Below, piece after piece: positions 1 through 14,684 of a DNA stretch of 64,000 nt. Each line of letters opens with the position of its first letter. The first letter of the stretch is position 1. The stretch comes from Acidimicrobiales bacterium. GTDB taxonomy: Bacteria > Actinomycetota > Acidimicrobiia > Acidimicrobiales > SZUA-35. A program made the position numbers and the translations under genes. Below the pieces are notes generated by a model, which saw only the letters and a program-made list of their open reading frames with translations, had not been told where the DNA came from and searched no databases. The stretch covers positions 1-64,000 of the forward strand of contig JAHDBV010000003.1 in assembly GCA_020630195.1 (NCBI GenBank), given 5' to 3'.

Positions 1-1873
1 CCTGGTCGACCCAGCGCACCACGTAACCGAGGATGCCCTGCGCGTTGTTGTCGAGTTCGGCCTGGATCTCGTCGTCGCTCCAGTCGGCGGACGCCGAGAC
101 CGGGATGCGCAGCAGGTCGTCGAGGGTGGCTCGGGGCCCGTCGGCCGCCGCGGCGGCGAGCAGCTTGCCCTGCTCGTTCACCACGTCGACCTGGTGGTAG
201 TGCGTGGCGTGCAGCGTGGCGGCGGTGGGGGAGGGGACCCACGCACAATTCGCACCGGACCGAGGGTGGCCGATCTTCTGATCGAGCATGTCGGCCATGC
301 GGTCGGGGGCGGCCCACATGCCCTTCCCGATCTGGGCCTTGCCCCGGAAGCCGCAGGCGAGGCCGACGTCGACGTTCCAGTCCTCGTAGGCGCCGATCCA
401 GGTCTCGGCCTTCATGTCGGCCTTGCGGACCATCGGACCGGCCTGCATCGAGGTGTGGATCTCGTCGCCGGTGCGGTCGAGGAAGCCGGTGTTGATGAAA
501 CAGACCCGGTGGCGGGCCTTGCGGATGCACTCGGCGAGATTGACCGTGGTGCGGCGCTCTTCGTCCATGATCCCGATCTTCACGGTGTGGCGGGGCAGGC
601 CGAGCAGGTCTTCCACCCGGTCGAACAGGTCGTTGGCGAAGGCGACCTCGTCGGGGCCGTGCATCTTCGGCTTCACGACGTAGACGGCGTTGGTGCGGCT
701 GTTGCGCCGCACGCCCTCGGGCTTGGCGAGGTCGTGCAACGCACAGGCCACGGTCATGAGCGCATCGAGGATGCCCTCGGGGATCTCGTTGCCGTCGGCG
801 TCGAGCACGGCCGGCGTGGTCATGAGGTGGCCGACGTTGCGGGTGAGCAGCACCGCCCGGCCGGCCATCGTGAGCTCGTTGCCGTTGGTGCCGGTGTAGG
901 TGCGGTCGTCGTGGAGGCTGCGGGTGAAGGTGGTGTCGCCCTTCGTGACCTCTTCCGCGAGGTCGCCCTTCATCAGGCCGAGCCAGTTGCGGTAGGCGAG
1001 GGCCTTGTCCTCGCCGTCGACGGCGGCGACGGAGTCTTCGCAGTCGACGATGGCGGTGAGGGCCGACTCGAGATGGATGTCGGCGACCCCGGCGGCGTCG
1101 GCCGCACCGATCGAGTCGGTCGGATCGATCTGGATGGCGATGCCGAGGCCGTGGTTGCGGAGCAGGATCTCGGTGGGGGCGGCGGCGTCGCCCGCGTGGC
1201 CGGCGAAGGCGCCGGTGTCGGCGAGGCCGTTGGTCGAGCCGTCCTGCATGGCCACGACGAGCGCACCGTCGGCGACCGTGTAGCCGGTGGCCTCCGTGTG
1301 TGAGCCGGTGGCGAGCGGCGCGACCTCGTCGAGGAAGTTGCGCCCCCAGGCGATCACCCGGGCGCCGCGGGCCGGGTCGTAGGGGCCGGGAGGTGCGGTG
1401 TCGCCGAGGGCGTCGGTGCCGTAGAGGGCGTCGTAGAGCGACCCCCAGCGGGCGTTGGCGGCGTTGAGGGCGTAGCGGGCGTTGGTGACCGGCACCACGA
1501 GCTGGGGCCCGGGCACGCTGGCGATCTCGGGGTCGACGGCCTTCGTGGTGATGATGAAGTCGCCGGCCGGCGGCACGAGGTAGCCGAGCTCCTCGAGGAA
1601 GGTGCGGTAGGCCTCGGCGTCGTGGGGCTCACCGGCCCGCTCCCGGTGCCAGCCGTCGATGGCGGCCTGCATCTCGGCTCGCACCTCGAGCAGCTCGGCG
1701 TTGCGGGGGCCGAACTCGGCCACGAGGGTGGCGAGGGCCACCACCACGGTCTCGGCGTTGAGTTCGATGCCGTCCACGAGCTCCTCGGTGATGAAGCGGT
1801 GGAGGGGCGCCGAGATCCGCAGATGGCTGGGCGTCTCGGCGGGGGTGGGCGACGAAGGGGGGTGTTCGCTCAT
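1..1873 (-). CDS. glcB: malate synthase G (3' end outside window)
   Basis: Condenses glyoxylate with acetyl-CoA to malate in the glyoxylate bypass or glycolate use. It is missing from the ORF track because its stop lies beyond the left edge. I translated it from the complement: ATG at 1873, about 624 residues visible of the roughly 720-730 usual for the monomeric G isoform. Family motifs seen include [12 protein letters not shown], the following [19 protein letters not shown] segment with the catalytic acidic and Arg residues, and [12 protein letters not shown] in the middle domain. It diverges from a GntR regulator across 59 bp, so shared control is likely. Only about 100 C-terminal residues are unseen. 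Confidence 0.95.
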
Positions 1874-1890
1874 ACCCCGGACCCTATGGG

Positions 1891-1910
1891 GTCAACTGTT
1901 AACAGTCAAC
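1891..1910. promoter_or_regulatory. candidate GntR operator between glcB and gntR
   Basis: GTCAACTGTTAACAGTCAAC holds three GT(C/T)AAC units starting every 7 bp (1891, 1898, 1905). Its centre ACTGTTAACAGT (1895-1906) is a perfect 12-bp palindrome. The site lies in the only gap between the two divergent genes, 18 bp from glcB and about 22 bp from gntR. FCD-type GntR proteins usually bind short palindromes next to their own gene. Binding is inferred. Confidence 0.6.
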
Positions 1911-1919
1911 ATCACGTGC

Positions 1920-1925
1920 TATCGT
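1920..1925 (+). promoter_or_regulatory. leaderless-type -10 box of gntR
   Basis: TATCGT ends 7 nt before the GTG start of gntR and no Shine-Dalgarno sequence is present. This is the spacing expected if transcription starts at the start codon. Confidence 0.4.
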
Positions 1926-1932
1926 TGCCCTC

Positions 1933-2586
1933 GTGAACCTCTCCCTGGCGCACACCGACCTCGGCTCGGCCGTGACGACGGCCCTTCGCGACGCCATCGT
2001 CTCGGGGCGGTTCGAGGCGGGGGAGCGGCTGGTGGAGACCGAGCTCGCCGAGCAGTTCGGCACGAGCCGCGGGCCGATCCGCGACGCCCTGGCCGAGCTG
2101 GAACGCACCGGCCTCGTCGAGTTGCGGCCCCGGAAGGGGTCGTTCGTCCGCACGCTCACGGCCACCGACGTCGCCGAGGTCTACAGCCTGCGGATCACGC
2201 TCGAGTCGATGGCGATCCGCACCGCGATCGAGGCCGGGCGGGGTGACACGATCGGGCCGGAGCTGTTGGACGCGTTGGCCGTCGCTCACGCCGAGTCCAC
2301 GAACGGCGACGGTTCCGCGATCGGCATGGCCGACATCGCCCTCCACCGGGCGGTCGTGGCCGCCGCCGGGCACCAACGGCTGCTCGACGCCTGGGAGGCG
2401 CTGGCCGATCAGACGTTGCTGATGATGGCGACCCTGCCGTCGGTGGCGCCCGACATCCAGGGCCCGATGGGTGCCCACCGGGCGATCGTCGATGCGCTGT
2501 CGTCAGGTGATGCCGACGTCGCCGTGGCGGCGCTCGTCGACCACCTGACCGAGGCCAGCGAAGCGATGTCGGCCCGCTTCACCTGA
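1933..2586 (+). CDS. GntR-family regulator, FCD (FadR-like) subfamily
   Basis: Ligand-responsive DNA-binding repressor or activator of 217 aa. The N-terminal winged helix (about residues 10-75) has the helix-turn-helix TELAEQFGTSRGPIRDALAE and a wing ending in RKGSFVRTL. The rest is an alpha-helical FCD effector domain with typical His positions (ALHRAVVAAAGH, AHRAIV). It diverges from glcB, so it probably senses a glyoxylate/glycolate-type or other carboxylate metabolite; the ligand is not visible. The start is a GTG without a Shine-Dalgarno sequence but with a -10 box 7 nt upstream. Its last codons lie in a 22-bp sequence repeated 907 bp downstream. Confidence 0.9.
   Translation: MNLSLAHTDLGSAVTTALRDAIVSGRFEAGERLVETELAEQFGTSRGPIRDALAELERTGLVELRPRKGSFVRTLTATDVAEVYSLRITLESMAIRTAIEAGRGDTIGPELLDALAVAHAESTNGDGSAIGMADIALHRAVVAAAGHQRLLDAWEALADQTLLMMATLPSVAPDIQGPMGAHRAIVDALSSGDADVAVAALVDHLTEASEAMSARFT
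2565..2586 (+). repeat. 22-bp direct repeat, copy 1 (gntR 3' end)
   Basis: GATGTCGGCCCG-CTTCACCTGA covers the last codons and stop of gntR. An identical copy is at 3472-3493. Downstream of both copies a second short identity (CGCGCTCGG) follows, so the duplicated segment was probably longer and has diverged. Together the copies bracket a lower-GC toxin/immunity islet. Confidence 0.9.
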
Positions 2587-2606
2587 GTCCCAAATCCCCG
2601 CGCTCG

Positions 2607-2623
2607 GTGATGCCGGGCATCAC
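2607..2623. terminator. hairpin after gntR
   Basis: GTGATGCC-G-GGCATCAC gives an 8-bp stem with a minimal loop, 20 bp past the gntR stop. There is no T-tract, as is common in high-GC actinobacteria. It lies just inside the left end of the islet. Confidence 0.4.
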
Positions 2624-2673
2624 GCAGTGGTGGGAACTCCGGCGAGCGCGCCACGTCGGTCTCGGCCGATTCG

Positions 2674-2856
2674 TCAGATCTCCCCGAGCTCGATCGGTCG
2701 GTACCCGAGTGCCGTGTCAACGATCTCTTCGACGCTCGGCAGTCGATCGATGGTCGTCGACCAGGCGAAGGTTGTCTCTCGAGGAAGTGGGCCCTTCCAC
2801 TGCAGACCTGATCGGAGCGGACCTCCGGCTTCCGGCCGTACATCCCAAACCTTCAA
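2674..2856 (-). CDS. possible small protein coupled to the immunity gene
   Basis: A 60-residue frame that the ORF track shows only as the tail of a longer shadow ORF. A TTG start overlaps the TGA of the upstream immunity gene (TTGA), with GGCGGA some 9 nt before it. The product begins MKVWDVRPEAGG and ends GYRPIELGEI, with plausible protein composition. I do not recognise a family. It could be a second immunity or accessory protein, or the displaced tail of a larger gene. The coupling and composition are the only support. Confidence 0.35.
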   Translation of the reverse strand: MKVWDVRPEAGGPLRSGLQWKGPLPRETTFAWSTTIDRLPSVEEIVDTALGYRPIELGEI

Positions 2857-14171: not shown

Positions 14172-14684
14172 ATGGCTCCCTTCTCCCGCCTGCTCCGTCT
14201 CTCCGTCGCGCCCGCGCTGGCCGCCCTCGCCGTGTTCGGCGCGGCCGGTGGTGCCTCCGCCCAGGACTCGGGCGACGACCCGGCCCTGGTCGACGAGGGC
14301 GCCGTCATCTACGAGAGCTCGTGCGCCGGCTGCCACGGTGCCGACGGCGAAGGCACCGGCTTCGGTCGATCGCTCATCGGCGTCGCCGAGCAACAGCCCG
14401 ACCGCACCGTGCACCTCGCGAGTGTGGCCAACGGCATCCGCAACATGCCCGAGTTCTCCTCCGACCTCGACGACCAGCAGATCGACGCCGTGGTGTCCTA
14501 CGTACGCCTCACCTTCGTGGCCGCACAGGCCGACGACGGCGAGGACGCCGCGGAGGAGACCCGGGACGAGCTGCCCCGCACCGGTGGCACGCTCACCCTC
14601 GCCGGGATCGCCCTCGCCCTCATCGGCGGCGGCGCCGGGCTCGAGCTGCTCGCCCGCCGACGGGACGTGGCACCGATCGACTGA
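14172..14684 (+). CDS. cytochrome c with an LPXTG-type cell-wall sorting signal
   Basis: 170 aa from ATG 14172; the ORF track lists it only as the tail of a 665-aa frame. Order: Sec signal peptide (about 1-30, ending ASA-QD), one class-I-type c domain with heme site SSCAGCHGADGEG and probable axial Met in GIRNMPEF, and an acidic linker. It ends in LPRTG, a hydrophobic helix (TLTLAGIALALIGGGAGLELL) and a basic RRR tail. That ending is a textbook sortase substrate signal. If processed, a mono-heme cytochrome would be covalently tied to the cell wall; if not, the helix is a plain membrane anchor. No sortase gene is in the window. Confidence 0.85.
   Translation: MAPFSRLLRLSVAPALAALAVFGAAGGASAQDSGDDPALVDEGAVIYESSCAGCHGADGEGTGFGRSLIGVAEQQPDRTVHLASVANGIRNMPEFSSDLDDQQIDAVVSYVRLTFVAAQADDGEDAAEETRDELPRTGGTLTLAGIALALIGGGAGLELLARRRDVAPID

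Follow-up and report, generated by a model that had tools for sequence, protein, structure and literature searches.

A mono-heme cytochrome c with a conserved C-terminal LPxTG sorting signal in Acidimicrobiales, probably anchored by sortase

We have identified a gene for a small c-type cytochrome with an LPxTG-type C-terminal sorting signal in a 64,000-nucleotide stretch of DNA from an Acidimicrobiales bacterium (the whole stretch is called the window here). The open reading frame at 14172-14684 on the forward strand translates to 170 residues, in which a Sec-type signal peptide is followed by a class I mono-heme cytochrome c domain, a short linker, the pentapeptide LPRTG, a hydrophobic helix and an RRR tail. 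The features of the gene are as follows:

14172..14684, forward strand: gene for a 170-residue cytochrome c of putative sortase type, based on translation, Pfam models PF13442 and PF00034, and 18 orthologues
14172..14261, forward strand: signal peptide of Sec type I, residues 1-30, with a predicted cut after ASA and without a lipobox Cys
14322..14336, forward strand: CAGCH heme c attachment motif, residues 51-55, seen in the sequence; C51, C54 and H55 invariant in 18/18
14445..14450, forward strand: Met92-Pro93, presumed distal heme ligand on the model of class I cytochromes c; invariant in 18/18
14571..14585, forward strand: LPRTG sorting motif, residues 134-138; L, T and G invariant in 18/18, with P (13 sequences) or A (5 sequences) at the second place
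14592..14654, forward strand: hydrophobic C-terminal helix, about residues 141-161 by sequence; the AlphaFold2 model has a helix at 140-165
14655..14663, forward strand: RRR basic tail, residues 162-164, seen in the sequence; orthologues are also basic after the helix

Two Pfam models match the heme domain above their cut-offs, Cytochrome_CBB3 (PF13442; residues 39-111, E = 1.2e-14) and Cytochrom_C (PF00034; residues 40-112, E = 1.1e-10). The protein has one CxxCH and is hence mono-heme, and the presumed distal ligand opens an MPEF sequence (residues 92-95). An AlphaFold2 model built on 16 orthologues (mean pLDDT 79.5) displayed a signal helix at residues 4-24, class I cytochrome c helices, a coil around LPRTG and the C-terminal helix at 140-165, and its Foldseek matches were small cytochromes of class I, c-552 and c6 among them. 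The CxxCH, distal Met and fold that define a class I c-type cytochrome were all found by Pfam, alignment and structural model. At the end of the signal peptide, A30 is invariant and Q31 nearly invariant among the 18 aligned sequences. The junction reads ASA-Q in the window protein, and a lipobox Cys is absent from it and from all 18 orthologues in the alignment; identity as a lipoprotein cytochrome c was ruled out on the ASA-Q junction.

Signal peptide, LPxTG-like motif, hydrophobic stretch and basic C-terminal tail succeed one another in the order expected of a sorting-signal protein. The preliminary description of this DNA had reported a CxxCH mono-heme domain with a signal peptide, which translation and Pfam bear out, and an LPRTG motif with a hydrophobic helix and an RRR tail, which the sequence confirms. 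The Gram_pos_anchor model (PF00746) gave the cytochrome tail 16.0 bits, below the curated cut-off of 20. Five other tails encoded in the genome pass this cut-off, and low scores are frequent among short actinobacterial tails. Given the protein's own composition, LPxTG would arise by chance anywhere in 170 residues with a frequency of about 0.4%, a figure that does not yet require a position beside a terminal helix and basic tail. A chance origin is excluded because the motif is retained in 18 of 18 homologues.

The search for orthologues covered relatives, the order and GTDB contigs, and yielded 18 orthologous genes in 16 genomes from three families of one order; in the GTDB contigs, a single-protein query gave no match and an alignment query found orthologues. 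Wherever a taxon is given, the orthologues belong to Acidimicrobiia, order Acidimicrobiales (families f1, which is the window's own, f17 and f27). Scores in the order, class and phylum samples were bimodal, with about 200 bits for orthologues and under about 90 bits for all else, and no homologue outside the order exceeded about 90 bits in the class and phylum samples.

Past the heme domain, the only residues invariant among the 18 orthologues are L134, T137 and G138 of the motif and G154, a glycine of the helix; linker length and helix sequence are variable. L-[P/A]-x-T-G is kept in every orthologue, as LPxTG in 13 and LAxTG in five. The preliminary description had made its reading depend on the fate of this motif in homologues, and it is the motif that persists though the helices diverge, leaving that reading in place. 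The tail might nevertheless be a membrane anchor alone, the C-terminal helix holding the cytochrome and LPRTG going unused by sortase. C-terminal helices are a common anchor, and the other cytochromes c of the genome have a lipid or membrane-helix anchor; a plain helix, however, would not preserve the L, T and G of the motif in all 18 proteins while helix and linker drift, and the genome also encodes sortases and other sortase substrates. We therefore consider a purely membrane-anchoring tail very unlikely. An assembly or frame artefact that fused two genes is a further conceivable source of the architecture, as the window genome assembly (4.9 Mb) is fragmented into 200 contigs and 82% complete. 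The orthologues refute such a fusion, with an identical architecture in 16 genome assemblies, and its probability is negligible.

Other mono-heme cytochromes found were mostly lipoproteins that stop at the heme domain. When 52 heme domains were placed in a tree, a single branch with a bootstrap of 92 separated the 18 LPxTG proteins from the rest; given the few alignment columns, this represents moderate support. The lipobox cytochromes of the same bacteria fell outside this 18-member clade. These sequence relationships are compatible with a single origin of the LPxTG anchor on the cytochrome.

A survey of 397 genomes of the phylum for CxxCH followed by L[PA]xTG, using a crude DNA pattern, returned 19 matches, approximately equal to the number from a reversed-pattern control. 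The pattern misses the window gene itself, which has a longer linker, and convergent cases elsewhere are thus possible. Among the in-frame matches, a plausible tail was seen only in a distant actinobacterium (L285; G740:C33:57897-58123), where an in-frame CLVCH lies about 70 residues before LPLTG and a hydrophobic tail. To judge from its lack of a Met-Pro motif and its unconvincing heme domain, this protein is probably not a cytochrome.

The absence of sortase genes had also been named in advance as an outcome that would count against anchoring. Three PF04203 sortases score over the cut-off in the window genome, one class-E-like and two class-F-like, and the reading stands on this point as well. 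All three could be aligned to sortases of solved structure in the regions of the catalytic His and Cys. The best model for the class-E-like enzyme was that of class E (NF033747, 153.9 bits, below the cut-off of 160), and its motifs AGHR and TLTACHP align with a solved sortase; the class-F-like enzymes scored about 142 bits with NF033748, below the cut-off of 166. Approximately ten further LPxTG/LAxTG tails were recognized in the genome with the Gram_pos_anchor model and by inspection (three LPVTG, two LPETG, one LPTTG, one LPATG and three LAFTG). CxxCH is absent from these proteins, and no second protein combining a cytochrome with LPxTG was found among the PF00746 and PF13442 matches of the genome. 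SrtE1 of Streptomyces coelicolor cleaves LAETG as well as LPETG and prefers Ala two-fold (PMC5148588). Because SrtE1 takes both motifs, which fits the mixture of P and A in the orthologues, the class-E-like enzyme is favored, and by this analogy it would most likely be the one that acts on the cytochrome. The class-F-like enzymes are possible alternatives for cutting it.

The class-E-like sortase gene of the window genome (G000, C101:11273-12454) and a complete System I ccm operon diverge from each other, 115 nt apart (together C101:11273-18355, L169). The operon comprises genes for an ABC ATPase, CcmB, a CcmC-type protein, CcmE, CcmF, a thioredoxin-like protein and CcmH. Of 30 sampled genomes, 27 have a CcmA homologue beside a class-E-like sortase, and one of the three exceptions is at a contig end. 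We regard this adjacency as suggestive only. The conserved block is wider and extends to the genes that flank the sortase opposite the ccm operon, on which ground we rejected the adjacency as proving a dedicated system; the same arrangement is also seen in genomes that yielded no LPxTG cytochrome.

A second class-E-like sortase gene was found on contig C44 of a relative, G028 (L076; 1662-2801, minus strand; PF04203, 3.2e-28). The gene for an LPxTG cytochrome follows it on that strand, with a likely start 125 nt beyond the end of the sortase gene (the pair spans 1075-2801, minus strand). This linkage lies within one contig of a genome that is 88% complete with 4% contamination, and which carries a separate ccm-linked sortase copy as well. 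From the gene order, it is possible that this sortase is dedicated to the cytochrome; such a pair occurs at one of 17 orthologue loci.

No conserved partner operon was detected across the 17 loci, the only informative recurrent neighbors being that one sortase and a MarR-family gene near the cytochrome in seven (L066, L068, L070, L071, L072, L074 and L090), in varying orientations. The recurrence of the MarR-family gene could point to a role of the cytochrome in sensing redox state, oxygen or NO, or in heme-based scavenging, tied to the neighboring regulator. MarR proteins are cytoplasmic, however, while the cytochrome is exported, and no receptor connects them; the variable orientation and the invariance of Met92, as in electron-transfer cytochromes, likewise argue against a sensor or scavenger, which we judge improbable. 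The MarR neighbor may simply control expression of the cytochrome. The preliminary description had also placed the gene between a transaminase operon and KorAB, which suggested a tie to them. That position is correct in the window genome, but the arrangement is absent at the 17 orthologue loci, none of which, the same-genus locus included, has a match to KorA, KorB or an aminotransferase nearby. The position is therefore uninformative on function, and the suggested tie was abandoned as local to the window genome, with no synteny even within the genus.

The other cytochromes c that were read in the window genome have, by sequence, a lipobox or a membrane helix. The respiratory chain has a bc-type complex (G000:C154, L277; 7167-11659) with a membrane-anchored diheme cytochrome, a split cytochrome b and a Rieske protein. 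A Fer4-type ferredoxin gene precedes the genes of this complex. The nearest solved sequences to the window protein are those of the first heme domain of QcrC from actinobacterial bc complexes (for example PDB 7e1v and 6hwh; E about 1e-11), and both proteins carry a class I heme domain with CxxCH after a signal peptide. QcrC is a diheme subunit of a complex with a membrane helix, whereas the window protein is stand-alone, with one heme and an LPxTG tail. Identity as a QcrC subunit was ruled out by the single CxxCH, by a score of 44 bits versus a cut-off of 200 with NF050122, and by the location of the bc-complex genes on another contig.

On these findings, the window protein is very likely a functional cytochrome c that is anchored by sortase, and the chances are about even that the anchored protein also serves as an electron carrier. 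These Acidimicrobiales would probably, then, fasten an electron carrier covalently to the wall. Genes for heme loading by Ccm and for sortase transfer are both present in the window genome, and both systems are presumed to act on this cytochrome. We infer the following course of cleavage, wall linkage, acting sortase and redox partners. The cytochrome would be exported by Sec and loaded with heme outside the membrane by System I (Ccm), while the C-terminal helix would hold it in the membrane briefly. A sortase, most likely the class-E-like enzyme, would then cut between Thr137 and Gly138 and join the cytochrome to a peptidoglycan precursor, the product being a wall-tethered mono-heme electron carrier at the inner wall. 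Electrons would pass from the membrane-bound bc-type complex, or from another dehydrogenase, through the cytochrome to an acceptor between membrane and wall, and in cells that presumably lack an outer membrane the covalent tether would prevent the escape of this small, soluble cytochrome.

A carrier near the membrane that is fed by the bc complex is favored mainly because the heme domain is related to that of QcrC and the Met ligand is invariant. A short tether bearing one small heme would suit a carrier kept near the membrane and one that exports electrons equally well, and electron export across the wall is speculative. In that case the anchored cytochrome could take part in extracellular electron transfer, passing electrons across the wall to an external acceptor: a wall-bound heme would sit between membrane and outside, and wall-bound cytochromes have been proposed to take part in metal reduction by Thermincola, as discussed in PMC4137172. 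The protein has only one heme, however, no multiheme cytochrome or extracellular reductase gene is linked to it at the orthologue loci, and no further LPxTG cytochrome was found in the genome that could form a chain. We consider such outward transfer unlikely. Rather doubtful is a fuller version of the wall-bound carrier, in which the sortase anchor would have replaced a lipid or membrane anchor, with a dedicated sortase in at least one lineage, and electrons would cross the zone of the wall to reach acceptors outside the membrane.

Several known systems resemble parts of this protein. Lipoprotein mono-heme cytochromes c, such as the Bacillus c-551 type, are represented in the same bacterial class, and two in the window genome (L161 and L164) are alike in fold, size and MP(A/G)F region; in contrast to the window protein, they have a lipobox Cys, have no C-terminal tail and fall outside the LPxTG clade. 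Isd-type NEAT hemoproteins of Gram-positive bacteria are anchored by sortase and bind exchangeable heme b for iron uptake, and they differ from the window protein in having neither CxxCH nor a cytochrome c fold. Sortase-anchored LPXTG/LAXTG surface proteins share its pentapeptide, hydrophobic stretch and basic tail. The known substrates of class E sortases in Streptomyces are chaplins and other surface proteins, with no c-type cytochrome found described among them (PMC5148588). Among published cases, ANME archaea offer the closest parallel, in that their small multiheme cytochromes may carry PGF-CTERM archaeosortase motifs (PMC9012536), a C-terminal sorting signal predicted to yield a covalent anchor; those cytochromes are archaeal and multiheme, with a predicted lipid link made by archaeosortase, and the machinery is not homologous to the system considered here. 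A literature search, mainly of open-licence papers, found no description of a wall- or sortase-anchored c-type cytochrome in bacteria. Such proteins do look rare, as had been supposed when the gene was first noticed. Both halves of the protein, cytochrome c and sortase signal, are of known kinds; it is their combination that is conserved across families of an order with no description found.

Cells without an outer membrane must stop small cytochromes from diffusing away, and lipid anchors, membrane helices and fusion to respiratory complexes are the known ways of retaining them. A covalent wall tether made by sortase would, if true, be a further way. It would also turn the wall into a site of redox chemistry, in an order that is represented here almost entirely by metagenomes, and class E sortases would gain a bioenergetic substrate.

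Two other sets of exported proteins were observed in the window genome. Three small exported proteins with cysteines share a near-identical QVRGQ-LP-TG end (L034, 357-677; L035, 1480-1824; L036, 152-556, minus strand). Upstream of each class-F-like sortase gene lies a gene whose exported product has a C-terminal helix and is similar in the two cases (L002, 23-1249; L003, 108-1049); these products may be DUF4397-like.
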